Made by a program: the position numbers and the translations under genes
Part shown: positions 10,719-31,144 of the stretch, piece by piece
Layout: each line of letters begins with the position of its first letter
Numbering within the stretch: position 1 is the first letter of the stretch
DNA from: Acidimicrobiaceae bacterium
GTDB taxonomy: Bacteria > Actinomycetota > Acidimicrobiia > Acidimicrobiales > RAAP-2
Length of the DNA: 64,000 bases
Assembly: GCA_003153575.1 (NCBI GenBank)
Contig: PLZW01000016.1
Span: 3,895-67,894, forward strand
Reading direction: 5' to 3'
The notes under the pieces: model-generated
Databases searched by the model: none
The model's input: only the letters and a program-made list of their open reading frames with translations
What the model was told of the DNA's origin: nothing

Positions 10719-10729
10719 GGCACCTCTCC

Positions 10730-10744
10730 GAGAATCCGATTATC
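10730..10744. promoter_or_regulatory. Palindromic operator candidate, amidohydrolase promoter
   Basis: GAGAATCCGATTATC, a 15-base inverted repeat with one mismatch between arms, 12 bases upstream of the amidohydrolase ATG on the minus strand. Its right arm read on the minus strand is GATAAT, a good -10 box, so a bound protein would block the promoter. It belongs to the recurrent SAGAAYnnnRTTMTS set (also 11902, 16066, 17808, 25049, 26581, 26613). Confidence 0.55.
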
Positions 10745-10749
10745 GCTGG

Positions 10750-10762
10750 TGTAGAACCTACA
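10750..10762. promoter_or_regulatory. Perfect palindrome TGTAG-AAC-CTACA
   Basis: A perfect 5-3-5 inverted repeat, TGTAGAACCTACA, between the amidohydrolase and reductase genes, falling in the -35/-10 spacer of the putative amidohydrolase promoter. It differs from the neighbouring GAGAA-type palindrome and may bind another regulator. No second copy was found in the window. Confidence 0.4.
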
Positions 10763-10788
10763 TCGCCGGAGCCGACCCCGTGGCCCGG

Positions 10789-11838
10789 TCAGAGCTGCTC
10801 GTACTCGATCCTGAGGGACGGGCCGGTGGGCACCGACTGGCAGGTGAGGACCCACCCCTCCTCCACCTCGTCCGGCGTCAGGGCGTTGTTCGCCCGCATG
10901 CTGACCGATCCCTCGTGGAGGAGGGCCATGCACGTGGCGCAGCTGCCTGCCTCACACGAGTACGGGGCCGGCAGGCCGGCCCGGCGGGCCGTTTCGAGCA
11001 CGGTGTCGCCGGCGTGATAGGCCACCTCGTGGCGCCGACCCTGGAGCTGCAGCACGATCGTCGCCGGCACCGGCCCATGCGTGGCGTCGACCGGTGTGGA
11101 CTCCCCCGGCTCGGGGGTCACGAACCGCTCGATGAGGATCGACCCGGGCGCCACGCCGGCGGCGAGCAGGGTCTCCTCAACCAGGTCCATGAACGGGCCG
11201 GGGCCGCAGATGTAGAAGTCGGCGTCGAGCTCGCCGCCGACCAGGTCGAGGACCGCCGCCGGCCGGGGGAAACCGCTGGCCGAGTCGAAGTGTCGGCGCA
11301 CCTCGAGCCGATCGGGCGATCGGTGCTCGAGGTCGCGGAGGGCCTCGTCGAAGATGACGGAGTCGGGCTCCCGGCTGGCGTACAGGAGCCGGACCGTGCG
11401 ACCGGTCGAGGCGAGGGCGCTCTTGGCCAGGGAGAGGACCGGGGTGATGCCGCTGCCACCGCAGAACCCCACCAGTGGACGTCCGCTGCCGCTCAGGCAG
11501 AACGTCCCCGAAGGTGGGGACGTGTCGACCAGGTCGCCGACGGCCACCTTGTCGTTGAACCAGTTGGAGACGGTGCCCCCGGGGACGCGCTTGACCGTCA
11601 CGGCCAGATGACGGTCGGTCTCGGGGGCACTGGACATCGAGTAGCAGCGGCAGTGCTCGTCATCGTCGATCCGCACCCGGAAGGTGCAGAACTGCCCCGG
11701 GCGGTAGCGGTACACCTCGGCCAGGTCGTCCGGCACGTCGAGCACGAACGTGCGGGTGTCATCGGTCTCGTCGACCACCTGGATGACGGCAAGCGGGTGG
11801 AAGGCGTGGCGGCGCGCCACGTGGTCGACGTCAGTCAC
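10789..11838 (-). CDS. KshB/PaaE-like ferredoxin-NAD(P) reductase
   Basis: A 349-residue three-domain electron-transfer protein: an FAD-binding domain (RCYSMSSAP), an NAD(P)-binding domain (GFCGGSGITP, YICGPGPFM) and a C-terminal plant-type [2Fe-2S] ferredoxin with CEAGSCATC and a fourth Cys in VLTCQS. This order is that of KshB, the reductase of 3-ketosteroid 9alpha-hydroxylase, and of PaaE/HmpX types; it would pass electrons from NADH to a Rieske oxygenase. The probable partner is the Rieske protein at 14717-16009, since both genes carry the same palindrome at the promoter. The start is GTG 11838, with no obvious Shine-Dalgarno. A TAGAGT -10 box lies at 11891-11886. Confidence 0.88.
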   Translation of the reverse strand: MTDVDHVARRHAFHPLAVIQVVDETDDTRTFVLDVPDDLAEVYRYRPGQFCTFRVRIDDDEHCRCYSMSSAPETDRHLAVTVKRVPGGTVSNWFNDKVAVGDLVDTSPPSGTFCLSGSGRPLVGFCGGSGITPVLSLAKSALASTGRTVRLLYASREPDSVIFDEALRDLEHRSPDRLEVRRHFDSASGFPRPAAVLDLVGGELDADFYICGPGPFMDLVEETLLAAGVAPGSILIERFVTPEPGESTPVDATHGPVPATIVLQLQGRRHEVAYHAGDTVLETARRAGLPAPYSCEAGSCATCMALLHEGSVSMRANNALTPDEVEEGWVLTCQSVPTGPSLRIEYEQL

Positions 11839-11901
11839 GATCGCACGGACCGGGCACGGCGACTGGCGTATCGCTCACCGACGCCACTCTAGCAGTCAGT
11901 T

Positions 11902-11916
11902 GAGAACCTGATTCTC
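11902..11916. promoter_or_regulatory. Palindromic operator candidate, reductase promoter
   Basis: GAGAACCTGATTCTC: arms GAGAA/TTCTC match perfectly around a five-base centre. It overlaps the expected -35 region of the minus-strand reductase promoter (-10 TAGAGT at 11891-11886). It lies in the 252-base divergent gap between the reductase and the plus-strand amidohydrolase (12091), so it could act on both. Member of the recurrent palindrome set. Confidence 0.6.
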
Positions 11917-12090
11917 GCTTCATCCGGTGCCGGTGGCCTGGGATGGGCGCGGGGCGGGGCCGACGTCCGCCTGTCCCGGACACGGGCCCGCCGATTGTGG
12001 CACGTCGCTGCGATAACGTCGGTCACAACCTCAGGAAACCCCATAGTGCAGGCTCGAAAACGGCGCTGCCACCACCTCGGAGGAGCCGAC

Positions 12091-13350: not shown

Positions 13351-13372
13351 CCGCAGCCCGGCCTGCGGTCGT

Positions 13373-14332
13373 TCAGATAGAGCCGGCCAACGAGGCCACG
13401 AACTCCCGCGTGCGGCGCGCCGAAGTCAGCTTCTCCTCACGGGACTCGCCGATGGGTACTACCCGCAGCGACACGTCGGTCGCACCGGCGTCGGCGAACG
13501 CCTGCAGCCGTCGACGGATGGCGTCCTCGCTGCCGGCGGCCAGGATGTCCCCGACGGTCCGGGCATCACCCAGGTCGAGCAGCCTCTGGTAGTTGGGCGA
13601 TACCTCGGACTCGGACAGGACACGATTGGCGCGACCCACCGCCACCTCCACCTCGCCGTCGCCGCACAGGCAGACGGGTACCCCGGCCACGATGCGGGGC
13701 GTCGGTCGTCCGGCGGCGGTGGCTGCAGCATGCAGCACGGGGGCGATGTGGGTCTCGATGGCCCGCTCGTCGGCCAGCCACAGGATGGTCCCGTCAGTAC
13801 GCTCCCCGGCGATGCGGAGCATCACCGGCCCCAGGGCGGCGATCATGACCGGCGTCGGAGTGATGTCGGTGACGTCCATCGGCTGGTGGACGCGGAACCG
13901 CTCGTTTTCGACGTCGACCATCCCCGGTCCGGCCAGTGCCCGGTCGAGGACATCGAGGTAGTCGCGCATGGTGGCGGCGGGGCGTTCGTAGGGGAGCCCG
14001 AGCATCTCGTCGATCACCCAGTGGTGCGACACACCGAGCCCCAGGGTCAGCCGCCCCTCGCACACCGCCTGGGTGGACAGCACCTGCTGGGCCAAGACGA
14101 CGGGGTGCCGGGGCTGGATCGGGACCACGGCGGTACCGATCTCGATCCGGGACGTCGCCGACCCGATGAGCACTGCTGCCGTCAGGGCGTCGAAGTCGTC
14201 GGGGATCTGCGGGATCCACAGCGACGCCAGGCCGGCCTCCTCGGCCCACGTGGCGTCCGCCACCATCCGCTCGACCTTCGTGGAGTACCGGCCCCGCTCG
14301 GGACCCACCATCACGCCGAGGCGCACGCGCAT
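13373..14332 (-). CDS. F420-dependent luciferase-like oxidoreductase
   Basis: A 319-residue TIM-barrel oxidoreductase of the LLM class, F420-dependent type in actinobacteria. Features: RVRLGVMVGPE at the start, LWIPQI, the cofactor-contacting RIEIGTAVVPIQPRHP, LGLGVSHHWVIDEMLG, and the closing ATDVSLRV segment. In this family F420H2 reduces enones, imines or ketones, or F420 accepts hydride from alcohols. It is the third gene of the operon Rieske oxygenase - small protein - this gene, with a 41-base gap. It could reduce a ring or enone intermediate produced by the oxygenase. FMN rather than F420 use cannot be excluded. Confidence 0.85.
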   Translation of the reverse strand: MRVRLGVMVGPERGRYSTKVERMVADATWAEEAGLASLWIPQIPDDFDALTAAVLIGSATSRIEIGTAVVPIQPRHPVVLAQQVLSTQAVCEGRLTLGLGVSHHWVIDEMLGLPYERPAATMRDYLDVLDRALAGPGMVDVENERFRVHQPMDVTDITPTPVMIAALGPVMLRIAGERTDGTILWLADERAIETHIAPVLHAAATAAGRPTPRIVAGVPVCLCGDGEVEVAVGRANRVLSESEVSPNYQRLLDLGDARTVGDILAAGSEDAIRRRLQAFADAGATDVSLRVVPIGESREEKLTSARRTREFVASLAGSI

Positions 14333-14373
14333 GTTCCTTTCGTCACCGGTTCGATCCGGTCAGGGGCGACGGG

Positions 14374-14703
14374 TCAGACGGCCGGCTCGACGACGGCATC
14401 CATGCTGGCCGCCCCGCTGTCCGGTACCCGGGGCTGGCGCCACACCTCCACGGGAAAGGACACGTTGACCAGGGAGTAGCTCAGCTCGAGCAGGAGGCGG
14501 GCGTCGTCGGGCAGGTCGTCGAGCGGCAGGGCGTCGAGGTAGACCAGGATCTGCTCGAGCCGGGGAAAGGCGGCGTCGTAGAACGACTGCAGCTCGCCCA
14601 TCGAGCTGGCCAGGCGCTTGGCGTAGCGCTCCGCCTCACTATGAAGGCACCAGTCGGCGAACGGCTCGAGGTCGGCGAATTCGGGGGGCAGGACGGGGTT
14701 CAT
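14374..14703 (-). CDS. Small conserved protein of Rieske operon, function unknown
   Basis: A 109-residue, acidic, mostly helical soluble protein with no Cys cluster, signal or membrane segment. ATG 14703 is chosen; it lies 13 bases after the Rieske stop. Recognisable elements are FADLEPFADW, ERYAKRLASS and the Asp-rich LDALPLDDLPDDARLLLEL. I recall similar short proteins next to ring-hydroxylating oxygenase genes in actinobacteria and sphingomonads, but no function is known to me. Its fixed place between the oxygenase and the LLM oxidoreductase suggests an accessory or assembly role for the oxygenase, an inference from position only. Confidence 0.72.
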   Translation of the reverse strand: MNPVLPPEFADLEPFADWCLHSEAERYAKRLASSMGELQSFYDAAFPRLEQILVYLDALPLDDLPDDARLLLELSYSLVNVSFPVEVWRQPRVPDSGAASMDAVVEPAV

Positions 14704-14716
14704 CGAGGCTCCCGGC

Positions 14717-16009
14717 TCAGCGGACGGCCGGGACGGCGACCGGCGTCCCCGACTTCTCATGGTCGGCGACGTACCGGCGCGCCGTCCGGTGCAGATGGCG
14801 GAGGAGGATCTCCTGGTCGTTCAAGGGGAACTCGGTCACGGCCCGCGACTCGATCATCGTCTGGGTGGCCTCGAGGGTGTTCCCGTCCTGCAGGGCGTAC
14901 TCCTTGAACGTCACCGCAGCCAGCTCCTGGCGGAGGCGATCGGTGGCGTCCTTCGGGGGCACGAAGTAGAGCGTCCCCTCGAAGATGTGCGAGTTATGGG
15001 AGGTCGGCCAGTAGTGGTACGTGAGGTACCAGCCCGGGGCCCACACCAGCAGCATGAAGTTGGGGAAGAGGACGAAGGAGTCGATGCCCCAGTTCGGGGA
15101 ACGGGCCGGGTTGACCGCCCCGGGCAGAGGATCGAGTCCGGCGATGTCGGGCCGGTCCCAGGGGCCGAAGAGGCCGCTGCGGAGCACGTTCTCGATCGGC
15201 TTCACCATGGAGGGGTCCTTCGGTGGGGCCATGCCCCCCCACGACGACACCATGCCGTGCGGCCCGTCGATCACATAGGACAACGCCTCGAATCCGTAGC
15301 CCTGGAGCTTCCGCGACTCGTCGTCGGTGGCCTGCTTCGCGTGCAGGACGGGTGCGTGGTAGAACTCGGCGAACGCGTCGATGAAGAGCTTCCAGTTGCT
15401 CCCCACCTTGGCCCGGTACTTGTAGACCTGGGTCATCTCCCCGAACGGGTATCCCTCGAGCCCGGCGCCGAACTCGCCGAGGTACTCCTTGACCGACGTG
15501 GTGTTGGAGGGGTCGAGGTTGACGAAGATGAATCCCTCCCACACCTCCGTCTGCACAGCAACCAGCCCGTAGTCGTCCTTGTCGAGGTCGAAGAACTCCG
15601 ACTCCTGTTGGACGAAGGTCAACGACCCGTCGAGGTCGTAGCGCCAGCCGTGGTACTTGCAGGTGAACTGGCGGCAGGTCCCGCTCGTCTCCTCGTTGGG
15701 GAAGTCGTTCCACACCAGCTTGTTGCCCCGGTGCCGGCAGATGTTGTGGAAGCCGCGGACGCCCCCGTCCTTGTCCCGGACGATGATCACCGAGGTACCG
15801 GCGCAACTGAGCTCCTTGGTGAAGTACCGGCCGGCCCGGGGGACCTGCTCCACCCGACCGACGTTGAGCCAGGTCCGGTTGAAGATGGCCTTGCGCTCGA
15901 GCTCGTAGAACTCCGGCGAGATGGAGTCCTCGTAGTTGACCGGACCCGTACCCAACTCCGGGTAGTGCTCCGTCCAGCTTCCCTCAGACGGCTTCGGGAA
16001 GTGCGCCAT
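14717..16009 (-). CDS. Rieske non-haem iron oxygenase, large subunit
   Basis: A 430-residue ring-hydroxylating oxygenase alpha subunit. The Rieske [2Fe-2S] ligands are Cys91/His93 (CRHRGNK) and Cys117/His120 (CKYHGW). The mononuclear iron site is visible as His218 and His223 in DAFAEFYHAPVLH, where Asp replaces the usual Asn/Glu early in the motif. ATG 16009 is chosen because AGGAGG lies nine bases upstream; a longer frame begins at 16051. The enzyme would hydroxylate or dealkylate an aromatic or alicyclic substrate with electrons from a reductase such as the one at 10789-11838. No beta subunit is seen. A GAGAA-type palindrome and GATAAC -10 box lie 57-71 bases upstream, inside the end of the ligase gene. 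Confidence 0.92.
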   Translation of the reverse strand: MAHFPKPSEGSWTEHYPELGTGPVNYEDSISPEFYELERKAIFNRTWLNVGRVEQVPRAGRYFTKELSCAGTSVIIVRDKDGGVRGFHNICRHRGNKLVWNDFPNEETSGTCRQFTCKYHGWRYDLDGSLTFVQQESEFFDLDKDDYGLVAVQTEVWEGFIFVNLDPSNTTSVKEYLGEFGAGLEGYPFGEMTQVYKYRAKVGSNWKLFIDAFAEFYHAPVLHAKQATDDESRKLQGYGFEALSYVIDGPHGMVSSWGGMAPPKDPSMVKPIENVLRSGLFGPWDRPDIAGLDPLPGAVNPARSPNWGIDSFVLFPNFMLLVWAPGWYLTYHYWPTSHNSHIFEGTLYFVPPKDATDRLRQELAAVTFKEYALQDGNTLEATQTMIESRAVTEFPLNDQEILLRHLHRTARRYVADHEKSGTPVAVPAVR

Positions 16010-16047
16010 GCGGTAGATCCTCCTGTTGTGCCTGTCCCGGCACGATA

Positions 16048-17727
16048 TCATTGATCTCCTGAAAAGAGAAGCCCGTTATCACAGGGATCGGCGGGGACCG
16101 CGTCCGCCGACCACCCATCGCGGAGCCGCTGGCGGAGCACGAACTTCTGCACCTTGCCCGACGGTGTCCTCGGGAGCTCGTCCACCAGGTACAGGGCTTC
16201 GGGCCACTTCTGCCTGGCCAGCCCGGACCGGCCGAGGTGGTGGCGCATCTCCTCCACGGTGGGCGCCGTCATGTCGTCCCGCACCCGGACCACGGCGGCG
16301 GCGTGCTCGCCCAGACGTTCGTCCGGCTCGGCCACCACGCACACTTCGGCAACCTGGTCCATGCCCATCAGCAGCTCCTCGATCTCGGCGGCGCTGATGT
16401 TCTCCCCGCCCCGGATGATGACGTCGGAGATGCGGTCGGTGATGGTGAGGTAGCCGTCGTCGTCGAGCACGCCGACGTCGCCCGTCCGGTACCACCCGTC
16501 CTCGTCGAACACCTCCGCGGTCAGCTCGGGGTCGACGTAGCCGACGAAGCAGTCGGGGCCCCGGCTGAGGATCTGGCCGTCGTCGTCGAGGCGGACCTCC
16601 ACCCCGGGCAGCACCCGGCCGTCGGTCGTCAGCCGCTTCTCCTCGGGGTCGTCCAGCAGGGAGCCGGTGATCGAGGGATGCTCGGTGCTGCCGTAGGAGC
16701 GGAACGCCTTGATCCCGAGGTCGGTGGCACGCCGGGTCACAGCGACCGGCACGGGCGAGCCACCCAGTCCCGCGAACGGCATGAGGGCCAGGTGTTCGGG
16801 GGAGAAATCCGGGTGGTCGAGCAGGCTGGTCAGGAAGTACGTGGCCCCGCCGCCGACACCCAGTCCCTCCTCGCTCATCATCTTCAGCACCGCACCGGGG
16901 TCCCATACGTCGATGAGGTTGACCGACTGCTCGCGCAGCAAGGGGACCAGGAAGGCGTTGACCATCCCGATGAAGTGCCCCACCGGTGCCCCCGTGATCA
17001 TCGGCGGTCCGCCCTTCGGGAACATGTAGTCGAGCTGACGGGTCTCGCACCCGATGGTCCGGTGGGAGTGGATGACGCCCTTCGGGTCCCGGGTGGTCCC
17101 CGAGGTGAAGGCGATGATCGCCGGCGCGTCCGGGTCGACGGGCACGGGGCCCGGGAGGGGATCAGCCCCCAGGAGGGACTCGAAGCGCTGTGCCCCCGAC
17201 GGCAGGTCGACGTCGGGCGTTCCGCCCACCACCAGCCACCGCGCCCCGGGTCGACCCGTCAGGACCGCTCCGTAGTTGGCCAGGTAGTCGTTGTGGCCGA
17301 AGCGCTCGGCGGTGACCACCACCGCCGGGTCCATAGCGGCCACGATGTACTCGATCTCCTTGCGTCCGTAGAAGTGCACGACGGGGACCACGACCGCGCC
17401 CAGGTAAGCGGCTGCCCAGAAGGTGATGCCGGCTTCCAACCAGTTCGGGAGCTGGAACAGGACGACGTCCCCCGGACCGACGCCGTCGGCGGCCAGCGCG
17501 CCGGCCAGCGCCCGGGCCGACCGGTCGACGCCGGCGAAGGTCCCCTGCCACGGGCGCACGGCCGAGCGGACCCGGAAGGGGACATCGCCGATCCGGCCGA
17601 GCCCGGCGTCGACCATCTCCCCGAGGGTCTGGTCGGTCCACCAGCCCTCGTCCCGGTACCGGCGCGCCCGGTCCTCCGGCACCGCTCGCCGCGACCAGCG
17701 CTCGCCCTTGTCGCCCCACTCCCCCAC
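16048..17727 (-). CDS. Acyl-CoA synthetase (AMP-forming)
   Basis: A 559-residue ANL-superfamily ligase that activates a carboxylic acid through an acyl-adenylate to its CoA ester. The P-loop-like motif is FTSGTTRDPKG, the adenine motif YGSTEHPS, the hinge WYRTGDVGVLDDDGY and the catalytic Lys segment RTPSGKVQK near the C-terminus. It resembles cyclohexanecarboxylate/long-chain ligases. The GTG start at 17727 has GAGGAGG upstream. It precedes the Rieske gene by 38 bases and is divergent from the SnoaL/FadE operon, with the shared palindrome between them. It probably activates the carboxylic acid that the FadE pair then oxidises. Confidence 0.88.
   Translation of the reverse strand: MGEWGDKGERWSRRAVPEDRARRYRDEGWWTDQTLGEMVDAGLGRIGDVPFRVRSAVRPWQGTFAGVDRSARALAGALAADGVGPGDVVLFQLPNWLEAGITFWAAAYLGAVVVPVVHFYGRKEIEYIVAAMDPAVVVTAERFGHNDYLANYGAVLTGRPGARWLVVGGTPDVDLPSGAQRFESLLGADPLPGPVPVDPDAPAIIAFTSGTTRDPKGVIHSHRTIGCETRQLDYMFPKGGPPMITGAPVGHFIGMVNAFLVPLLREQSVNLIDVWDPGAVLKMMSEEGLGVGGGATYFLTSLLDHPDFSPEHLALMPFAGLGGSPVPVAVTRRATDLGIKAFRSYGSTEHPSITGSLLDDPEEKRLTTDGRVLPGVEVRLDDDGQILSRGPDCFVGYVDPELTAEVFDEDGWYRTGDVGVLDDDGYLTITDRISDVIIRGGENISAAEIEELLMGMDQVAEVCVVAEPDERLGEHAAAVVRVRDDMTAPTVEEMRHHLGRSGLARQKWPEALYLVDELPRTPSGKVQKFVLRQRLRDGWSADAVPADPCDNGLLFSGDQ
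16066..16080. promoter_or_regulatory. Palindromic operator candidate, Rieske promoter
   Basis: GAGAAGCCCGTTATC lies within the last codons of the ligase gene, 57 bases upstream of the Rieske ATG. On the minus strand the right arm gives GATAAC, a plausible -10 box, as at 10739-10744 and 17817-17822. Member of the recurrent set, deviating at base 6 (G for Y). It suggests that the Rieske operon has its own regulated promoter despite the close upstream gene. Confidence 0.45.
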
Positions 17728-17807
17728 GTCACCCTCCTCGTCCCATCCGTCCGACGGTCACTCTTCCATGTTCGCCCGATCGTGTGCCACCGTCATTGCC
17801 GATCCAG

Positions 17808-17822
17808 GAGAACTTCGTTATC
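17808..17822. promoter_or_regulatory. Palindromic operator candidate, ligase/SnoaL-FadE divergent promoters
   Basis: GAGAACTTCGTTATC in the 141-base divergent gap between the acyl-CoA ligase (start 17727, minus) and the SnoaL-FadE-FadE operon (start 17869, plus). The minus-strand right arm GATAAC is a -10-like box pointing to the ligase. Position and sequence match the sites at 10730 and 16066, tying ligase, dehydrogenases and oxygenase into one putative regulon. Confidence 0.55.
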
Positions 17823-17868
17823 GTCGCCGCCGTGGCGGTCGCCGTCACGACGACCAGGAGGTTCCGTC

Positions 17869-18300
17869 ATGGGCAGCCCACCCGTCGCCGACGTCATCGA
17901 GCTCGAGCAACTGCTGGCCCGGTACGCCGTCGGCATGACCACGGACGACGTCGACGCGGTCATCGAGGTGTTCACCCCCGACGGGACCTACAGCGCCTTC
18001 GGCGACACCTACCCCCTCGCCGACTTCCCGACCCTGGTGGCGGCGGCCCCCAAGGGACTGTTCCTGGTCGGACCCCCTGCCCTCGCGCTCGACGGCGACA
18101 CCGGCTCGGGTCAACAGCCGCTCTGCTTCGTCGAGCAGACCACCCACGACATGCGCATCGGGTACTACACGGACACCTACCGCCGGACGGCCGACGGGTG
18201 GCGCCTGCACTCGCGGGCCATGACCTTCCTCCGCAAGAGCGGGGCCCGGGACTCCGGTCGGGCCCATGACCCGACCCGCCCCGCGCCGTCGGGCCCGTGA
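17869..18300 (+). CDS. SnoaL-like/NTF2-fold protein
   Basis: A 143-residue cone-shaped NTF2-like protein. The family hallmark is the opening helix IELEQLLARYAVGMTTDDVDAV followed by EVFTPDGTYSAFG, and a C-terminal sheet ending YRRTADGWRLHSRAMTF. ATG 17869 has AGGAGG seven bases upstream. SnoaL-like proteins act as isomerases, cyclases, hydratases or dehydratase accessories on polyketide and steroid-like ligands. It is first in an operon with a FadE pair; its stop overlaps the next GTG start by four bases. It may be a hydratase/isomerase in the same degradation step, but the catalytic residues are not identifiable with certainty. Confidence 0.82.
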   Translation: MGSPPVADVIELEQLLARYAVGMTTDDVDAVIEVFTPDGTYSAFGDTYPLADFPTLVAAAPKGLFLVGPPALALDGDTGSGQQPLCFVEQTTHDMRIGYYTDTYRRTADGWRLHSRAMTFLRKSGARDSGRAHDPTRPAPSGP

Positions 18301-19463: not shown

Positions 19464-20422
19464 TGGATCCCGGGGATGTCACATTGTTCGAGCGGAGCCT
19501 CGGCGACGCCACCCGACGGGCCACCGGCGCCGACCTCGACGCCGCGCTCGACGACCTGGGCTGGCCCGACGCGCTCATCGACGACCCACAGGTCGCCGTC
19601 TCGCTGCTGTTTCGGCTCCAAGGGGAGTCCGGCGCCACCTCCTCGTCCCTCGGGCGGGTCATGGCCCATGCGCTGGGCCTGGCGGACGGGTCGACCACCG
19701 TGCTGCCCGCCGTCGGTGGGTGCGCGCCGCCCGGGACGGTCGACGACGGGTGGCTGCGCGTCGACGGCCTGGCCCCCGCCACACTGCCCGACCGTCCCAC
19801 GGCGCTGGTCGTGGCCTCGACGATCGGCGGTGCCACGTCCGCCTGCACGGTGGCGACGGCGTCGCTCGATCTGCACCCGGTGGCTGGGCTCGACCCCGAC
19901 ATAGGCCTGCTCCGGGTGAACGGTGAGATCGAAACCGTCGGATCCCAGGTGGACGTCCCCGCTGGTCCCTGGCCCGCCGCCGTGGCGCTCGGACGTCGGG
20001 CCGTGGCCCACGAGCTGATCGGGGCGTCCCGCACCATGCTCGACCTGGCCTGCGACCATGCCCGCGGGCGTATCCAGTTCGACCGCCCCATCGCCTCGTT
20101 CCAGGCCGTCCGCCACCGGCTGGCCGAGGCACTGGTGGCCGTGGCCATGGCGGAGGCGATGCTGGAGGCGGCCTGGCTCGACCCGACGCCGGACACCTCG
20201 GCCATGGCCAAGGCGGTGGCCGGACGCCAGGCCAAGACCACCGCCCGGCACTGCCAGCAGGTCCTGGCCGGCATCGGCTTCACGGTGGAGCACCCGTTCC
20301 ACCGCTATGTCCGCCGGACCCTGGTGCTGGACGCACTCCTCGGCACGGCGGCCTCGCTCACGACCGCGCTCGGGGTCGAACTGGTCGACCAGCGCCGCCT
20401 GCCACCCCTCCTACCACTCTGA
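19463..20422 (+). CDS. Acyl-CoA dehydrogenase, short subunit of FadE pair 1
   Basis: A 319-residue short acyl-CoA dehydrogenase relative. The N-terminal helical domain is abbreviated and the middle beta domain poorly conserved, but the C-terminal helical domain is clear: ARGRIQFDRPIASFQAVRHRLAE, HCQQVLAGIGFTVEHPFHRYVRR. Such reduced partners occur next to a full FadE in steroid clusters, where they complete a heterotetramer. ATG 19463 overlaps the preceding stop (TGATG), indicating translational coupling and likely 1:1 production. Last gene of the SnoaL-FadE-FadE operon; converges with a ParB-like gene 20 bases on. Confidence 0.85.
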   Translation: MDPGDVTLFERSLGDATRRATGADLDAALDDLGWPDALIDDPQVAVSLLFRLQGESGATSSSLGRVMAHALGLADGSTTVLPAVGGCAPPGTVDDGWLRVDGLAPATLPDRPTALVVASTIGGATSACTVATASLDLHPVAGLDPDIGLLRVNGEIETVGSQVDVPAGPWPAAVALGRRAVAHELIGASRTMLDLACDHARGRIQFDRPIASFQAVRHRLAEALVAVAMAEAMLEAAWLDPTPDTSAMAKAVAGRQAKTTARHCQQVLAGIGFTVEHPFHRYVRRTLVLDALLGTAASLTTALGVELVDQRRLPPLLPL

Positions 20423-20442
20423 GCGGAGCAATCCACCGGTTG

Positions 20443-20823
20443 CTACCGGTCGTAGGGAAGCTCGCCAGGCGTGGAGTTCCGGTAGTCCGGCTCCGGGTCT
20501 TCTTCGAACCTCACCGCCGTGATCGTCGACCTTCCGTCCAGGACGGCACGAGCGACCCTGTGCATCCCATCCATCAGTCGGCCATCGGCGCCAAGGATGA
20601 TCGGGTACGACGGGTCGACCTCGTTGATGAGCTGGATCTGCTCGATGATCCGCCGTACGGTCGGCTCGGGTCCGAGCTTGAACCAGTGGTCGGTGTCCAC
20701 TTCCCGGATCGAGTCGACTGGGACCTCGATGATGGGGAATCCCTCGGTGAGCTCGATCAACCGGTCGACGTCCCAGGCGTCGAATCCGACCGCACCGGGC
20801 CAGAAGTGATACTGCTTGCGCAC
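20443..20823 (-). CDS. ParB/Srx-like stand-alone domain protein
   Basis: A 126-residue protein whose centre, PIILGADGRLMDGMHRVARAVL, matches the ParB/sulfiredoxin-like nuclease-fold core (DGMHR). It is only the N-terminal fold, lacking the helix-turn-helix and dimerisation domains of chromosome-partition ParB, so a partition role is unlikely. The GTG start at 20823 is followed by RKQYHFWPGAVGFDAW. Local G+C is visibly lower than in its neighbours, which hints at separate ancestry. It lies alone between the FadE operon and the kinase operon and is not functionally linked to them by context. Confidence 0.65.
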   Translation of the reverse strand: MRKQYHFWPGAVGFDAWDVDRLIELTEGFPIIEVPVDSIREVDTDHWFKLGPEPTVRRIIEQIQLINEVDPSYPIILGADGRLMDGMHRVARAVLDGRSTITAVRFEEDPEPDYRNSTPGELPYDR

Positions 20824-20937
20824 GCGTTCCAGTCTTGCTCCAACGCGGCGGTTCGTCTGCCATCGTCGGACGACGGTTTGGGGGCGTCCCGTGGGAGGTG
20901 GTGCCGTTCGTCACCGCTGCACGCGCCACAGACAGGT

Positions 20938-21930
20938 TCAGCGCACCGGTTGCTCAGGGATCACGTCAAGGACGACCTTCCCCACCACCTGTCCGTCGGC
21001 CACCAGCGCCAGAGCGGCGGCGGTGTCGTCGAGCGCGAAGGTGGCCCCGAGGTGCGGACTCACTTCGCCATCGGCCAACAGTGCCCACAGCTCGTCGTCG
21101 TTGCGATGGAGCTCATCCGGACAGTGCTCGGCGAAGTCCCGGAACTGGAAGCCCAGCACCTGGCAGCCCTTCAACAACACCAGGTTGAGGGGGATGCGCG
21201 GGATCTCGCCAGAGGCGTAGCCGACGGTCACGAAGCGGCCGCCCCAGTGGAGCGACCGCAGGGCCGGCTCGGCCAGGGCGCCGCCGACGGGGTCGACGAC
21301 GACATCGGCGCCTCTGGGCAGCACGTCTCGCAAGGCGGCCCGCAGGTCGACGGCGGTGTGCTGGATCAAGTTGGCCGCGCCGGCGGCCCGGGCGGCCTCC
21401 AGCTTGGCGGTGGTCGACGCCACCGCCGTGACGTTGGCCCCGAGATGGCTGCCGAGGCTGACCGCCGCCATCCCGACGCCGCCGCCTGCGCCGAGGACGA
21501 CCAGCTCGTCGCCGGGCAGCACGCGGGCCACCGAGCGCAGCACGTGGTACGCCGTCCGCCAGGCCACCCCGAAGGCGGCGGCGTGGCGGTCGTCGACGCC
21601 GGGCGGCACGGCCCGGACGGCCGCCGGCGCCACCGTCACCTCCTCGGCGAAGGCACCCACCATCACCGTCCCCGCCACGCGATCTCCGACAGCCACCCCG
21701 ACGACGCCGTCGGCCACCTCGGTCACGTCGCCCGCGAACTCGCTCCCGGGCACGAACGGTGGCGCCACGGTGACCTGGTACCGGTCGGCGACGAGCAGCA
21801 CGTCGGGGAAGTTGACGGCGGCGGCCCGCACCGCCACCCGCACCTGGCCGGCGGCCAGCTCCGGCTGCGGCATCTCCTCCACCCTGATCACCTCTGGTCC
21901 CCCGTAGGCGCGGCAGACGGCGGCCCGCAC
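20938..21930 (-). CDS. MDR-family NAD(P)H oxidoreductase (quinone reductase-like)
   Basis: A 330-residue zinc-independent medium-chain dehydrogenase/reductase. The nucleotide-binding motif GAGGGVGMAAV follows the substrate domain (FVPGSEFAGDVTEVADGV); no structural or catalytic zinc Cys set is present. Related proteins are NADPH:quinone reductases and enoyl reductases. The start is GTG 21930, one base after the stop of the hydratase gene, because family similarity begins there (RAAVCRAYGGPEVI). Last of four minus-strand genes with hydratase, kinase-like protein and dehydrogenase; an enoyl-CoA reductase role is possible. Confidence 0.85.
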   Translation of the reverse strand: MRAAVCRAYGGPEVIRVEEMPQPELAAGQVRVAVRAAAVNFPDVLLVADRYQVTVAPPFVPGSEFAGDVTEVADGVVGVAVGDRVAGTVMVGAFAEEVTVAPAAVRAVPPGVDDRHAAAFGVAWRTAYHVLRSVARVLPGDELVVLGAGGGVGMAAVSLGSHLGANVTAVASTTAKLEAARAAGAANLIQHTAVDLRAALRDVLPRGADVVVDPVGGALAEPALRSLHWGGRFVTVGYASGEIPRIPLNLVLLKGCQVLGFQFRDFAEHCPDELHRNDDELWALLADGEVSPHLGATFALDDTAAALALVADGQVVGKVVLDVIPEQPVR

Positions 21931-21931
21931 G

Positions 21932-22714
21932 TCAGCGGCCCCTCCACACCGGGTCCCGCTTCTCCATGTAGGCCCGGGCACCCTCCATGGCATCCTCGCT
22001 GGCGAAGACTACGGCCGACCACTCCGCCTGACGCTCCCGCGCCGCCACCGGATCCGAGACGCTGAGGCGCACGAGTTCCTTGGAGGCGGCGAGACCGAGG
22101 GGACCGTTGGCGGCGATCCGCTCCGCCATGGCGACGGCGGTGGCCCAAACGTCGCCCGGTTCCACCACGGCGTTGACCAGGCCCACCTGATAGGCCCGGG
22201 CGGCGTCAACCAGGTCGCCGGTCAGGGTGAGCTCGAGGGCCACCGCCAACGGGATCCGGTTGCCGATGAGGGTGCCACCACCGGCGGCGTAGAGCCCGCG
22301 CTTCACCTCGGGTAGGCCGAAGCGGGCCTCGCTCGAGGCGATGACCACGTCGCAGCCGAGGAGCAGCTCCAGGCCCCCGGCCACCGCTGAGCCGTTGGCC
22401 GCGCCGACCACGGGGACGCTGACCTCGCCACGCAACAGCCGGTAGAAGGCCTCTGTCGCTTCGCCAGGTGTCGACCCGGGGACGTCCCCCTCGGTGAACG
22501 ACTTGAGGTCCATGCCTGAGCAGAAGGCCCGATCGCCGGTCCCGGTGAGGATCACGGCGCGGACATCGGGATCGGACTCCGCCTCGAGGATGGCCGCGCC
22601 GAGGGCGTCGACCAGACTGCTCGTCAGCGAGTTGCGGGCCTCGGGCCGATTCAGCCGGAGCAGCGACAGCGCACCCCGGCGGTCGCGCACCAACTCGTCG
22701 TCGTCGGCGCTCAC
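21932..22714 (-). CDS. Enoyl-CoA hydratase/isomerase (crotonase) family
   Basis: A 260-residue crotonase-fold protein. The CoA/oxyanion-hole elements are FCSGMDLKSF and GSAVAGGLELLLGCD; the acidic position of classical hydratases is seen in GLPEVKRGLYAAGGG, where Glu is kept. It hydrates trans-2-enoyl-CoA or isomerises double bonds. GTG 22714 overlaps the upstream stop (GTGA). In this operon it would act on the enoyl-CoA generated by the kinase/dehydrogenase pair upstream. Confidence 0.87.
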   Translation of the reverse strand: MSADDDELVRDRRGALSLLRLNRPEARNSLTSSLVDALGAAILEAESDPDVRAVILTGTGDRAFCSGMDLKSFTEGDVPGSTPGEATEAFYRLLRGEVSVPVVGAANGSAVAGGLELLLGCDVVIASSEARFGLPEVKRGLYAAGGGTLIGNRIPLAVALELTLTGDLVDAARAYQVGLVNAVVEPGDVWATAVAMAERIAANGPLGLAASKELVRLSVSDPVAARERQAEWSAVVFASEDAMEGARAYMEKRDPVWRGR

Positions 22715-23721
22715 GACTTGTAGTCCGACGTCTCGGCCAGGTCGGCGGCGCCCTGCATGAGGTCCAGCACGACCGGCCCGTAGGTCTGGAGCATGGGGTT
22801 GTCGCCCGCCCGCTGGAACCCCTGCTCCAGGACGACGGCCAGCTTCCACTTGGCCAGGACGCAGTAGTAGTCGATGTCGTCCACCTGTCGCCCCGACACC
22901 TCGGCATACCGGTCGAGAACCGCCGACCGCGACGGCATCCCCGTCATGTCGACGTAGGAGATGCCGGGCGAGTCGTCCGGATCCTCGGGCCACCCGTTGA
23001 CGACCCAGGCCAGGTCGAGCTTCGGGTCGCCCACCGTCCCCATCTCCCAGTCCACGATGGCCGCCATCCGGGCGGGCGCCCCGCGGCGGTACATGACGTT
23101 GGCGAACTGGTAGTCGCCGTGCATGAGACCGGGAATGAAGTCGATCGGCCGGTGCCGTCGCAGCCACGCCGACGCCTCGTCGAAGCCGGGCAGCTCGCGC
23201 CCCTTGATGCGCTCGAGGAACGCCGTCCACCGGTCGACCTGGCGTTCGTGGAAGCCGTCGGGGTGCCCCAGGTCCGCGAGGCCCTTCGCCTGCCAGTCGA
23301 CCTTCGACAGGAGGGAGATCCCGTCGACCAATTCGAAGGCGAGGCCCTTCCGAGCCCCGAGGTCGGTGTCGAAGGGTGCCGGCCACCCGTCGGTGTTCAT
23401 CGGCGACCAGCCGTCCACGTAGCCCATCAGGTAGAAGGTGCGTCCGAGGACGCCCGGGTCGTCGCAGGCGGCGATGGCCGCCGTGTGGGGGACGTCGGTC
23501 CCGTCGAGCGCCTCGATGATCCGCCATTCGCGCAGGATCCCGGCATCCCGGGTCTCCGGGGCCGACGGCGGAGGGATCCGCAGGGCACCGTGTACGACTC
23601 CTCGGCGGATCTCGTAGATGTCGTTCTGGGTCCCGCCGGAGACGAACGCGTGCTCGACGGGCGCGCCCACGCCGAGGCCCCGGTCGTCCATCCACGCGGC
23701 CAGCCGTTCCAAGTCGATCAT
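22711..23721 (-). CDS. Aminoglycoside-phosphotransferase-fold kinase (ACAD10/11/LvaA-like)
   Basis: A 336-residue protein-kinase-like phosphotransferase. The catalytic loop HGDYQFAN (the Brenner HGDxxxxN pattern) and metal-binding DWEMGTVGDPKLDLAW are intact, so it should be active. Start ATG 23721 overlaps the acyl-CoA dehydrogenase stop (TGATG). The same fold is fused to an acyl-CoA dehydrogenase in human ACAD10/ACAD11, and in Pseudomonas the LvaA kinase works with an ACAD-like partner on 4-hydroxyacyl-CoA. I infer phosphorylation of a hydroxyacyl-CoA rather than antibiotic resistance. Next to it are the matching dehydrogenase and a crotonase. Confidence 0.82.
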   Translation of the reverse strand: MIDLERLAAWMDDRGLGVGAPVEHAFVSGGTQNDIYEIRRGVVHGALRIPPPSAPETRDAGILREWRIIEALDGTDVPHTAAIAACDDPGVLGRTFYLMGYVDGWSPMNTDGWPAPFDTDLGARKGLAFELVDGISLLSKVDWQAKGLADLGHPDGFHERQVDRWTAFLERIKGRELPGFDEASAWLRRHRPIDFIPGLMHGDYQFANVMYRRGAPARMAAIVDWEMGTVGDPKLDLAWVVNGWPEDPDDSPGISYVDMTGMPSRSAVLDRYAEVSGRQVDDIDYYCVLAKWKLAVVLEQGFQRAGDNPMLQTYGPVVLDLMQGAADLAETSDYKS

Positions 23722-25022
23722 CAGAAATTTCCCACTTCGTGCTCCAGCAGTTCGGCGAACTTCTCGCGTGCCGCGGCGCGACGCTTCGGGAGGTGCTGGG
23801 TGGGCCACAGGTCGTCGGTGGCGCGGTGGTCGCGCAGCACCTGGCGGGCGACGGTCACCTTGTGCACCTCGGTGGGACCGTCGGCGAGTCCCATCACGCT
23901 GGCCGCGAGCATCATCGAGTGGAACGGCATCTCATTGCTGATGCCGAGCGCCCCGTGTATCTGGATGGCCCGCCAGGCGATGTCGTGGAGGACGCCGGGC
24001 ATCAGGACCTTGATGGCGGCGATGTCCTTGCGCACCTTCTGGTAGTCGTTGTGCTTGTCGATCAGCCACGCCGTGTAGAGCACGTACAGCCGGAACTGCA
24101 TGAGCTGGGCGTAGGAGTCGGCGATGTACCCCTGCACGAACTGCTTGTCCGCCAGCAGACCACCGGACACCTGACGGCTGAGCGCCCGCTCGCACATGGC
24201 GTCGATCCCCCGCCGGGCCAGGCCGATGGTGCGCATGGCGTGGTGGATGCGGCCGCCGCCGAGGCGCTTCTGGGCGATGGCGAACGCCTGGCCTTCGCCT
24301 CCGAGCACCGACTCGGCGGGCAGATGCACGTCGTCGTAGTGGATGAGGGCGTGAGAGCCCTCCCCTTCGGGATCGCCGGCCAGACCGACGTTGCGGACGA
24401 TCTCGACGCCCGGGGTGTCGGCGGGCACGAGGAACATCGACATGCCCTCGTAGGCCGACACGTCGGGGTTGGTGACCGCCATGACGATGAGGAACGACGC
24501 CGTCTGGGCATTCGAGGAGAAGAACTTCCAGCCGTTGAGGACCCACTCGTCGCCGTCCTTGACGGCGCGGGTCTCGAACCGGGTCGGGTCCGAGCCGCCC
24601 TGCGGCTCGGTCATCGAGTAGCACGAGAACATCTTCCCCTCGAGGAGGGGATGCAGGTACCGTTCCTTCTGCTCATCGGTGCCGTAGTGGGCGATGATCT
24701 CGGCGTTGCCGGTGTCGGGGGCCTGGCAGCCGAAGATGACCGGCGCCCAGGACGAACCGCCGAGGATCTCGTTCAGGAGCGAGAGTTTGAGCTGCCCGTG
24801 GCCCTGGCCGCCGAGTTCGGGCCCGAGATGGGTGGCCCACAGCCCCTGGGCCCGCACCTGTTCCTTGAGCGGGTCGGTGATGGCCCGGAGGGTGGCGTCG
24901 GGCGGCGTGAACTCGAGCCCGTGGAACAGCACGTCGATCGGCTCGACCTCGGTCCGCACGAACTCTTCCGCCCAGTCCAGCTTCTGCTGGTACTCGGGGT
25001 CGGTCTCGAAGTCCCATGCCAT
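23721..25022 (-). CDS. ACAD10/11-type acyl-CoA dehydrogenase
   Basis: A 433-residue acyl-CoA dehydrogenase. The flavin segment MTEPQGGSDPTRFETRA, the IQIHGALGISNEMP helix and the C-terminal signature GLADGPTEVHKVTVAR are characteristic of the ACAD10/ACAD11 branch (human: VADGPDEVH). ATG 25022 has GAGGAGGGG upstream; a longer frame starts at 25079 but would run into the divergent TetR operator. First of a four-gene operon with kinase, crotonase and MDR reductase. In the ACAD10/11 route the dehydrogenase domain eliminates phosphate from a 4-phosphoacyl-CoA; direct alpha,beta-dehydrogenation is the alternative. Confidence 0.87.
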   Translation of the reverse strand: MAWDFETDPEYQQKLDWAEEFVRTEVEPIDVLFHGLEFTPPDATLRAITDPLKEQVRAQGLWATHLGPELGGQGHGQLKLSLLNEILGGSSWAPVIFGCQAPDTGNAEIIAHYGTDEQKERYLHPLLEGKMFSCYSMTEPQGGSDPTRFETRAVKDGDEWVLNGWKFFSSNAQTASFLIVMAVTNPDVSAYEGMSMFLVPADTPGVEIVRNVGLAGDPEGEGSHALIHYDDVHLPAESVLGGEGQAFAIAQKRLGGGRIHHAMRTIGLARRGIDAMCERALSRQVSGGLLADKQFVQGYIADSYAQLMQFRLYVLYTAWLIDKHNDYQKVRKDIAAIKVLMPGVLHDIAWRAIQIHGALGISNEMPFHSMMLAASVMGLADGPTEVHKVTVARQVLRDHRATDDLWPTQHLPKRRAAAREKFAELLEHEVGNF

Positions 25023-25045
25023 GGGCTGCTCCCCTCCTCGTCGAG

Positions 25046-25066
25046 TGGCAGAATAACATTCTGTCA
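25046..25066. promoter_or_regulatory. Operator candidate overlapping TetR gene start
   Basis: TGGCAGAATAACATTCTGTCA is a 21-base inverted repeat (core CAGAAT-AAC-ATTCTG, 25049-25063; one mismatch further out), ending at the base before the TetR ATG at 25067. TAACAT (25054-25059) inside it is a -10-like box eight bases before the ATG, so the mRNA may be leaderless; AGAATA read on the other strand gives TATTCT for the dehydrogenase operon. A protein bound here would block both divergent promoters. Its core is a variant of the recurrent SAGAAYnnnRTTMTS set. Confidence 0.65.
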
Positions 25067-25753
25067 ATGGAGAATCCATCTCTGCCCGAGCCCGTCGACG
25101 TCGCCTCCCGGATCGCCCGGCAGACGCTCGACAAGCGCGGGCCCGATTACACCGGCGAGGTGCGTCGGTTGATCGACGCGGGACGGACCGTCATGCGGCG
25201 GTGCGGGACGGACTCCCGTCCCCGGGTGGCGGACATCGTCGCCGAGGCGGGGCTGTCCAACGAGGGTTTCTACCGGCACTTCGCCTCGAAGGACGCCCTC
25301 GTCGCGGCCATCCTCGACGACGGCACCGAGCGCCTGTTGAGCTATCTGGCGCACCAGATGGCGAAGGAGCCGACGGCGGAAGGGCGGGTCCGCTGCTGGG
25401 TGGAGGGCGTCCTGGCCCAGGCGGCCGACGAGGAGAGCGCCGCCACCACCCTCGCTGTCCTGTGGAACGCGGCGAGCCTGCGTGGGACGATGGCGGTCGC
25501 CCCCACTCCGACCAGCGCCCGTCTGGCCACGCTGTTGCACGCGCCGTTCGCCGAGCTGCACAGCACCGAACCGGTCCTCGACGCCGAGATCGTCGCCCAC
25601 GCCGTCGTCGGGATGCTCAACGATCTCCTGTGGGGACGCAGGACGCCCACCCGCGCCGAGAGCGATCGACTGGTCGAATTCTGCCTGGCCGCTTGCACGG
25701 TCGGGCGTGATCAGCGCGACGGACCCACGGCCCGGCCGACGTCGGGTGGCTAG
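25067..25753 (+). CDS. TetR-family regulator of the kinase/ACAD operon
   Basis: A 228-residue TetR regulator. The N-terminal helix-turn-helix is clear: VADIVAEAGLSNEGFYRHFASKDALVAAIL. The remainder is a helical ligand/dimer domain with no close match I recognise. ATG 25067 directly follows a 21-base palindrome and has no ribosome binding site, consistent with leaderless translation and autoregulation. It is divergent from the dehydrogenase-kinase-crotonase-MDR operon, 44 bases away, and most likely represses it until an acyl-CoA or acid ligand binds. Its stop codon overlaps that of the convergent TetR gene (CTAG). Confidence 0.88.
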   Translation: MENPSLPEPVDVASRIARQTLDKRGPDYTGEVRRLIDAGRTVMRRCGTDSRPRVADIVAEAGLSNEGFYRHFASKDALVAAILDDGTERLLSYLAHQMAKEPTAEGRVRCWVEGVLAQAADEESAATTLAVLWNAASLRGTMAVAPTPTSARLATLLHAPFAELHSTEPVLDAEIVAHAVVGMLNDLLWGRRTPTRAESDRLVEFCLAACTVGRDQRDGPTARPTSGG

Positions 25754-26490
25754 GCGGGCTTGACGATCTTGTCCCGGGCGCCGGAGCCCACACCGTTGAG
25801 GATGAACTCCCAGAGCTCCTCGGCCGGGTCCGGATCGATCGTGCGGACGGACGTCCCACCGATGGTGGTCGAGAACGCATTGAACATGATCGCCTCGAGC
25901 ACCATGCCGGCGATCGGGCTGCGGCGGAGCCCGGCGCGGATGCACCCGGCCGCCTCGGCGTCCTCGAGCACCTCGCCGAACAGTGAGACCAGCGGGTCGA
26001 AGGCGAGGGCCGCCTCCGTGGGATGGCTGGTCAGCAGCTGCTGGGCGAAGTCGACCATGACCCAGGCCGTGGCCAGCGGGTCCACGGGGTCCCCCGCCAG
26101 CGGCGGACGGCACAGCCGGTAGTACTCGATCACGAACCGGTGGATGCGCTCGAGCGGATCCGTCTCCTCGTCGATCTTCTCGCTGAGGAACGCAGCCGTG
26201 GACCGCACCGACTCCTCGAACAGGGCGAGCAGCAGCTCGTGCTTGCCGCCGAAGTACTGGTAGAAGAGGCGCAGGGACTGGCCGGAGCGCTCGACCACCT
26301 CGTGCACGGTGAAGTCCCGGCCCGATTCGCCCTCGTTCATCAGCTCGAGGGCGGCGTCCAGGAATCGCTGCAAGCGGTTCTCGGCCCGGGCCCTGGCCGT
26401 GAACAGTGACCGCGCCACCGCCTGCTCACGCCTGCTCAATGCCTGCTCCCCCACCGCGGCATCTTCGACCTCGAGTTCACTTTCGGTCAT
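25750..26490 (-). CDS. TetR-family regulator with tandem upstream palindromes
   Basis: A 246-residue TetR regulator with a charged 35-residue N-terminal extension before the HTH (FTVHEVVERSGQSLRLFYQYFGGKHELLLALF). ATG 26490 is the first start before the HTH on this frame with uninterrupted homology. The C-terminal domain carries PPLAGDPVDPLATAWV and a second-helix LLTSHPTEAALAFDPL segment. Upstream, 91-137 bases away, lie two GAGAACnnnGTTCTG palindromes 32 bases apart, the strongest argument that this protein binds the motif shared with the Rieske/ligase/FadE island. It follows the hydratase gene of the ligase/FadE operon by 142 bases on the same strand. Confidence 0.87.
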   Translation of the reverse strand: MTESELEVEDAAVGEQALSRREQAVARSLFTARARAENRLQRFLDAALELMNEGESGRDFTVHEVVERSGQSLRLFYQYFGGKHELLLALFEESVRSTAAFLSEKIDEETDPLERIHRFVIEYYRLCRPPLAGDPVDPLATAWVMVDFAQQLLTSHPTEAALAFDPLVSLFGEVLEDAEAAGCIRAGLRRSPIAGMVLEAIMFNAFSTTIGGTSVRTIDPDPAEELWEFILNGVGSGARDKIVKPA

Positions 26491-26580
26491 TGCCGGAAGT
26501 CTAGTGGAGGTAGCGGAAACAGTGAATCCCCAGTCCGCGAAGTCCGACTGTCGGATCCGGTGACACCTGGAGTCCCCTGT

Positions 26581-26595
26581 GAGAACTAAGTTCTG
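26581..26595. promoter_or_regulatory. Palindromic operator candidate, TetR promoter copy 1
   Basis: GAGAACTAAGTTCTG, with perfect inner arms AGAAC/GTTCT around TAA. It lies 91 bases upstream of the TetR start at 26490. It is one of a tandem pair with identical flanks (GAGAAC...GTTCTGG), the second copy exactly 32 bases (about three helical turns) further upstream. Confidence 0.6.
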
Positions 26596-26612
26596 GCTGC
26601 CCGGCTCGGGGC

Positions 26613-26627
26613 GAGAACCCTGTTCTG
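26613..26627. promoter_or_regulatory. Palindromic operator candidate, TetR promoter copy 2
   Basis: GAGAACCCTGTTCTG, with perfect inner arms AGAAC/GTTCT around CCT, ending six bases before the hydratase stop codon. With the site at 26581 it forms a helically phased tandem pair suited to cooperative binding of two TetR dimers. Confidence 0.6.
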
Positions 26628-26632
26628 GGGGT

Positions 26633-31104: not shown

Positions 31105-31144
31105 TCTTCTCTCTCGTGAGATCGACGTCAACATCGGAGGGATG

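Follow-up and report, generated by a model that had tools for sequence, protein, structure and literature searches.

Among the closest described counterparts of the system treated here are KstR and KstR2, TetR-type repressors whose short palindromes lie at divergent promoters of catabolic genes, those of the repressors themselves among them. The core of the KstR site is AAC-N2-GTT. For KstR2, the excerpted text of the source proposes a 15-gene regulon controlled via sites near its own gene, and gives the KstR2 site, AnCAAGnnCTTGnT, with its two-base spacer, and the KstR site a length of 14 bp (PMC3068626). In this study, we analyzed a stretch of 64,000 nucleotides of contig PLZW01000016.1 from an Acidimicrobiaceae bacterium (hereafter the window), in which a 15-base palindrome, written SAGAAYnnnRTTMTS in an earlier note on this DNA and searched here as SAGAAYNNNRTTMTS, recurs at seven places in a catabolic gene cluster that also encodes two TetR-family proteins. 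These are the products of TetR gene A (25067..25753, plus strand; 228 residues), the candidate repressor of one class of sites (class A), and TetR gene B (25750..26490, minus strand; 246 residues), the candidate repressor of the other (class B). We consider it quite probable that the palindromes are operators of a pathway-specific circuit with gene B and gene A as its repressors. The likeness to KstR and KstR2 extends to the enzymes, as the cluster encodes acyl-CoA dehydrogenases (ACADs) resembling Tcur3483 and the 4x28 chains. In contrast to the KstR and KstR2 sites, all seven window sites are 15 bp long with three-base (N3) spacers. No chain named KstR was found among the 18 matches of the gene B protein in the PDB, nor an NCBIfam model of that name, although many of the chains carry generic names and KstR was not compared directly. 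By analogy, the system may work like KstR-type catabolic repression, which is a parallel in mode of action and not an identification of either protein as KstR.

Three-base spacing, which the earlier note took to set these sites apart, is not new. The Streptomyces TetR-family protein SCO7222 is listed with a 15-bp GAAC-N3-GTTC palindrome, TGGAACGNCGTTCCA, three times in Table 2 of the excerpted source (PMC3511530), and differs in its outer bases, TG..CA as against GA..TC in the window sites. The actinobacterial TetR-type regulator BioQ has a predicted site, TGAAC-N3-GTTCA, with predicted control of biotin genes in the portion of the source that was available (PMC3398298); its core and spacing are those of the window sites, and its outer base is different (T..A). 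In the window, oxygenase, ligase, ACAD, ECH and amidohydrolase genes take the place of the biotin genes as predicted targets, and a scan of 20 cluster proteins gave no match to a biotin-synthesis family. A further parallel concerns paired dyads. According to the source excerpts, QacR binds 28 bp as a tetramer (PMC4482099) and FasR binds three inverted repeats (PMC7382501); the two dyads that lie about two helical turns apart at the Rieske promoter (22 bp) and at gene A (21 bp) would be compatible with paired dimers of this kind. No published description of the regulon was found among the literature matches listed, and an equal mycobacterial logo may exist in the figures of PMC4482099. What stands without a description that we could find is the regulon itself, a conserved TetR regulon and probably two interleaved ones.

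Exact copies of the palindrome lie at 10730, 11902, 17808, 25049, 26581 and 26613, and the copy at 16066 deviates from SAGAAYNNNRTTMTS by one mismatch, all as the earlier note had described. The six exact sites give 10 exact strand-matches, where shuffled sequence gives 0.02 per 64 kb on average. They are also the only exact matches in the organism's own assembly (2,982,648 bp in 43 contigs; reversed control, 0), which is 76% complete and so leaves room for sites in the absent parts. The rough probability that six uniformly placed sites would fall in one 15.9-kb stretch is 3e-11. On our gene calls, too, 16066 lies inside the last codons of the ligase gene and the six exact sites are all intergenic, yet intergenic DNA makes up just 5.0% of positions 9417-27418. 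The genome scan that the earlier note had proposed as a check therefore came out in favor of the sites as far as exact matches go, which occur only in the window cluster.

The sites separate into two classes. Class B, GAGAAY-N3-RTT(A/C)TC, tracks TetR gene B, and class A, CAGAAT-N3-ATTCTG with a second dyad 21 bp on, tracks TetR gene A. Among 397 genomes of the order, the class B pattern GAGAAYNNNRTTATC is present in 17 of the 20 whose gene B reaches an identity of at least 50%, and in 99 of the 377 others (Fisher p 1.7e-7); with gene A called at E 1e-30, it is present in 12 of 13 genomes with B and without A versus one of 13 with A and without B (p 3e-5), both values being generous because the genomes share ancestry and are not independent samples. 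The class A pattern CAGAAYNNNRTTCTG was followed in 50 chosen genomes. It lies at the gene A promoter of the 13 A-only genomes exactly in five, as a near-match in three and not at all in five; it occurs anywhere in two of the 13 B-only genomes, both times on a contig other than that of gene B, and in none of the 10 genomes with neither gene. Overall, a CAGAAT-N3-ATTCTG-type site, exact or degenerate, stands at the gene A promoter in 15 of 21 gene A loci. These 15 and three others form the class A alignment, from which L111, L116, L119 and L122 were dropped as having no match, L117 as having its match 676 bp away and L124 as having a weaker match. The last base is G in 18 of 18 class A rows versus 0 of 15 class B rows, the latter having been chosen by pattern. 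In the window, the class A operator CAGAATAACATTCTG (25049..25063) lies between the ACAD-APH-ECH-QOR genes (20938..25022, minus strand) and gene A, which face each other across it, and the weaker second dyad (25070..25084, plus strand) falls within the first codons of gene A. Across 18 sequences, the offset of +21 averages 7.7 of 12 matches, with a mean of 2.7 (sd 0.9) for the other non-zero offsets.

This separation bears on the strongest competing explanation, according to which one TetR protein, that of gene B, binds every site including 25049, and gene A acts elsewhere or responds to a different signal through the same sites. Both classes do share AGAAY-N3-RTTCT, and the window sites before gene B are intermediate, with a G start and a CTG end. 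However, the A-only and B-only genomes set the classes apart, and both the last base and the recognition helices of A and B differ between them (SGQSLRLFYQYF vs AGLSNEGFYRHF, each well conserved). We therefore regard control by gene B alone as unlikely, and the single regulon of the earlier note is not the best account of the data, since site 25049 belongs to a separate class that tracks gene A. The TetR protein at 25750-26490, which the same note had singled out, is nevertheless predicted to be the best candidate regulator for most of the sites.

In the two-repressor mechanism that we favor, a gene B dimer most likely binds GAGAAY-N3-RTT(A/C)TC and the tandem variant of it found at the Rieske operon, and would block transcription by covering the -10 or the -35. 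Its targets would be amidohydrolase 1, the reductase, Rieske-small-LLM, SnoaL-FadE1-FadE2 and gene B itself, and probably also ligase 2-ACAD-ACAD-ECH. The gene A protein most likely binds CAGAAT-N3-ATTCTG and the weaker dyad 21 bp on, and would control its own gene and ACAD-APH-ECH-QOR. Release of the repressors would probably be brought about by a pathway acyl-CoA, and the pathway substrate may be an acid of steroid- or isoprenoid-like type. The sites, their conservation, their overlap with promoters, their co-occurrence with the TetR genes and the separation into classes are what we observed; from these we infer the binding, its repressing rather than activating effect, the ligand and the substrate. 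We are evenly divided over a more specific picture, in which two TetR repressors with genes arranged tail to tail divide one pathway between them, it is mainly the outermost base pair (G..C vs C..G) that discriminates between operators with a shared AGAAY-N3-RTTCT core, and the gene B branch is a regulon in two separate parts of the phylum, with the window as one version of it and tandem dyads in a stereotyped -35/N17/TATCNT promoter. If true, operators would here have diverged in nature with cross-talk still possible, and the two near-identical operator classes would offer a compact system in which to ask how neighboring TetR repressors avoid or exploit such cross-talk.

The placement of the class B operators over promoters was examined gene by gene. 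Before amidohydrolase 1 (9417..10718, minus strand; ATG at 10718), the operator GATAAT-CGG-ATTCTC (10730..10744, minus strand) is an exact match, and sites of the same kind precede the orthologues in G014 and G370; its GATAAT (10744-10739) reads into amidohydrolase 1 and could be the -10 of that gene. The operator GAGAATCAGGTTCTC (11902..11916, minus strand) lies over the -35 region of the promoter of a KshB-like reductase gene (10789..11838, minus strand), which has a TANNNT -10 at 11891-11886; on manual reading of the alignment, TAGRRT 9-10 nt past the reductase dyad also occurs in G014, G001 and G002. The operator GAGAACTTCGTTATC (17808-17822) is contained in a core promoter, TTGCCG-N17-TATCGT (17796..17824, plus strand), that leads into the SnoaL-FadE1-FadE2 genes (17869..20422, plus strand) and is seen in 15 aligned loci and four more. 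The 15 ligase/reductase/SnoaL sites, picked by exact pattern, align as TTGY-N8-GAGAAY-N3-RTTATC-NT, with TTG at a fixed place in 15 of 15 (TTGC in 14) and a T two bases past the dyad in 15 of 15, these outer bases being unselected. With the four further loci, which were read by eye, TTG is found in 18 of 19, G176 being without it. The arms reach 1.89 bits, a value inflated by the pattern selection, and the farther flanks average 0.41-0.46 bits. In this layout, 17 bp separate a -35 from a TATCNT -10 that leads into the reductase or SnoaL gene, and the operator covers the spacer and the -10. The 17808 operator may also control the AMP-binding acyl-CoA ligase gene on its other side (16048..17727, minus strand).

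At the Rieske-small-LLM genes (13373..16009, minus strand; a probable operon, judging by spacing), the deviant site turned out to be one half of a tandem. Its dyad, GATAACGGGCTTCTC (16066..16080, minus strand), overlaps the -35 position (16070-16065) with its TTCTC, and a second dyad 22 bp away, GAGATC-AAT-GATATC (16044..16058, minus strand), overlaps the -10 TATCGT (16047-16042); the core promoter reads TTCTCT-N17-TATCGT on the minus strand at 16070-16042. Because this promoter covers the ATG at 16051, we set the Rieske start at 16009, which has AGGAGG ahead of it. The tandem consensus is GRNAAY-N3-NTTCTC, seven bases, GAGATY-N3-G(A/C)TATC, then RT, and it is present in 20 of 22 Rieske orthologues of more than 60% identity, with TTCTC-N7-GAGATY exact at 13 and varied at seven. 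Seventeen were aligned; G400, G384 and G174 gave short-flank matches, G536 and G406 were unmatched and G444 was left out for want of sequence. In the aligned promoters the dyads carry 1.40 and 1.23 bits and the flanks 0.29-0.41, the rows having been found via a TTCT..AGA expression that selects for those letters. We considered whether 16066 was a chance match and dropped the idea, as the tandem is conserved; since one-mismatch matches are common in the genome, the site rests on conservation and not on its score. GATAAY itself appears in four of the 17 aligned promoters, and a minus-strand GATAAY -10 at 16066 was accordingly rejected. Such boxes, which the earlier note had placed at three sites, remain plausible at 10730 and are contradicted at 17808, where the alignment shows the conserved promoter on the plus strand, in the opposite direction.

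Across the 796 kb of contigs that were fetched, the shortened expression TTCTC-N6/7-GAGATY matches 21 times, all at two promoters: 13 times at that of the Rieske operon and eight times at the divergent one that separates the ligase 2 operon from an ACAD gene. The ligase 2 element, seen in eight genomes, reads GGAAACATTCTTCTC-N6-GAGATC in the window (31097..31123), with the minus-strand core TTGACG (31131-31126)-N17-AAGAAT (31108-31103). By its likeness to the Rieske tandem, it probably adds the ligase 2-ACAD-ACAD-ECH genes (26633..31095, minus strand) to the regulon. This element, the Rieske dyad at 16044-16058 and the gene A dyad at 25070-25084 extend the earlier list. As a separate observation, the ligase 2 ATG (31095) lies 7 nt past the apparent -10, which suggests a leaderless transcript.

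Upstream of gene B itself stand two class B-like operators, GAGAACTAAGTTCTG (26581..26595) and GAGAACCCTGTTCTG (26613..26627), both exact matches and 32 bp apart, the second with one counterpart in G014. These lie 77 and 109 bp upstream of the apparent -10 and not over it, so that simple occlusion does not explain them. This distance speaks for a reading of gene B as a transcriptional activator acting via these sites, and the excerpted source describes an activator of TetR type, FasR (PMC7382501). In contrast, the overlap of dyads and core promoter at the SnoaL, Rieske and reductase genes fits occlusion, and we hold activation to be unlikely, somewhat more so than control by gene B alone. The apparent -10 of gene B, TAGACT (26503-26498), lies 7 nt before the ATG (region 26488-26503), which suggests a leaderless start here as well; the same place holds TAGACT in G010 and TACACT in G014.

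Within the order, gene B has matches in 12 of 172 family genomes (E 1e-15) and 45 of 397 order genomes (E 1e-20), and reaches at least 50% identity in 20 of the 397, which span 12 families; three named Acidimicrobiales/Acidimicrobiaceae assemblies have it at 71-88%. In stitched loci, the sites recur at the ligase/reductase/SnoaL, amidohydrolase 1, amidohydrolase 2/reductase and ACAD/gene A promoters, and the sites, including the deviant 16066, are kept at orthologous promoters across the order. The 17 gene B genomes with GAGAAYNNNRTTATC carry 28 matches, for 27 of which the placement is known, and on manual reading 20 of these 27 lie at the promoter of a window-gene orthologue. The recurrence in orthologous clusters, on which the earlier note had staked its proposal, thus supports a conserved regulon centered on catabolic genes, and its assignment of sites to the amidohydrolase, reductase, Rieske, ligase/SnoaL-FadE and TetR genes was broadly right. 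A gene B paralogue of about 33-35% identity (L138:4825-5470, on G362:C195) has a site, GATAATGACATTCTC, immediately upstream, which suggests a wider subfamily with the same type of operator.

Several observations weigh against the two-repressor circuit, in addition to the shared ancestry of the genomes, the A-only promoters with inexact or missing class A sites and the distance of the gene B sites from their -10. Seven of the 27 listed GAGAAYNNNRTTATC matches are not at the promoter of a window-gene orthologue; three of them (G174, G225 and G479:C191) are beside cluster genes but front another ORF, and four (G384, G421, G400:62257 and G479:C163) are elsewhere. The bare strict pattern finds a match in 130 of 172 family genomes, and in many of these the control counts are of similar size; the 99 order genomes that have GAGAAYNNNRTTATC without gene B have already been mentioned. 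With one mismatch allowed, the window's own genome offers 50 other places (45+49 strand-matches in all; reversed control, 7+8), so a regulon scan must be strict; on manual reading of the list, RTG replaces RTT in 28 of the 50, which looks like codon usage. GAGAAYNNNRTTATC was not found in three of the 20 gene B genomes (G244, G282 and G310), of which G282 has the Rieske tandem; the SnoaL site of G225 is a one-base variant. The near relative G010 (71% complete; gene B at 85-88%) has zero exact strict matches, and its sites are degenerate, GAGAACCTGGTTCCG at gene B and only a GAAT-N3-ATTC core at gene A. In G066 and G067, which have gene B, the expected promoters are without an exact class B site. 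Before their gene B, at 36281 and 14964 respectively in stitched coordinates, lies a common palindrome, GAGAGTCCTGCTCTC, possibly a diverged operator; co-divergence of operator and recognition helix in these two genomes was looked for and not established.

Among 396 genomes sampled from the phylum, 11 that lie outside the order carry gene B at about 43-46%; our guess is that these are mycobacteria and relatives. The palindrome GAGAAY-N3-RTTCTC stands upstream of the gene B orthologue in all eight loci fetched from outside the order and also adjoins the Rieske operon in all seven that include it. As GAGAAYNNNRTTCTC (GAGAAYN3RTTCTC), it occurs 8-13 times per genome in 11 of 11 outside genomes, each 100% complete, with a control of 0. 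Per-site placement covers eight of them (G573, G599 and G900 were left out). In six of the eight, most listed sites fall in the roughly 90-150 kb around gene B (7 of 9 in G691, 9 of 11 in G913, 8 of 10 in G587, 9 of 10 in G852, 7 of 8 in G907 and 7 of 7 in G622, which has nine in the genome), and in the fragmented G642 and G886, the contig that carries gene B accounts for 4 of 9 and 5 of 11. Six of the seven sites of the G691 island are no more than 60 bp from an ORF by a simple ORF caller, the ORFs being those of a ferredoxin, a cytochrome P450, gene B, a CMD gene before the Rieske operon, an ACAD pair and an amidohydrolase; the seventh (208604) has an ECH gene on one side and, 1.1 kb on, a MeaB-like gene on the other. 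The predicted regulon would serve a Rieske/ACAD catabolic pathway in uncultivated Acidimicrobiales and some more distant actinobacteria. With 8-13 sites in each of the 11 genomes, the operator helps to list the pathway genes in a genome and so narrows the search for the substrate.

The distant genomes also bear on the possibility that an alternative sigma factor, and not a repressor, recognizes the sequences as its promoter elements. A TTG-N17-TATCNT-type promoter is indeed strongly conserved along with the sites, but the dyads are symmetric past the hexamers, their position varies (over the -10 at 17808, over the -35 at 11902 and further upstream at 26581), and the palindrome accompanies gene B in all eight distant loci; a sigma factor is a very improbable explanation. 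Chance palindromes, or DNA kept by close kinship alone, are scarcely credible, for although G014 and G010 are close relatives (gene B at 85-88%) and one-mismatch matches are common, the gene B genomes of the order sample span 12 families, the flanks are poorly conserved and the coupling holds outside the order against a control of 0 in 11 of 11 genomes.

As to the proteins, the left side of the cluster has Pfam matches to amidohydrolase 1 (PF04909), the 2Fe-2S/FAD/NAD reductase (PaaE-type by NCBIfam, below cutoff), amidohydrolase 2, an LLM oxidoreductase (F420 type by NCBIfam), the Rieske oxygenase, the acyl-CoA ligase, SnoaL and two ACADs, and the right side to QOR, ECH, APH, ACAD, the two TetR proteins, ECH and two more ACADs. 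The TetR_N helix-turn-helix (PF00440) exceeds the Pfam gathering score of 24 in both regulators, with 33.9 bits in gene A and 29.8 in gene B. An AlphaFold2 model of the gene B protein is all-helical, with helices 62-69 and 73-80 at the helix-turn-helix and a low mean pLDDT of 61.5. The closest PDB chains to FadE1 and to the ACAD at 27415-28563 are the 4x28 and Tcur3483 acyl-CoA dehydrogenases. We take 4x28 to be ChsE4-ChsE5 and Tcur3483 to be a steroid enzyme, both presumably acting on steroid side chains. The Rieske protein is of the Ring_hydroxyl_A type, and its closest PDB chains are carnitine monooxygenase and biphenyl dioxygenase. A plasmid search gave one weak Streptomyces match for gene B (30% identity over 41%) and, for the Rieske protein, about 38% at best among the matches listed. 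Finally, a gene for a GntR-type regulator (8724-9386) adjoins amidohydrolase 1, and its homologues are found near cluster genes in G004, G014, G034, G066 and G067.

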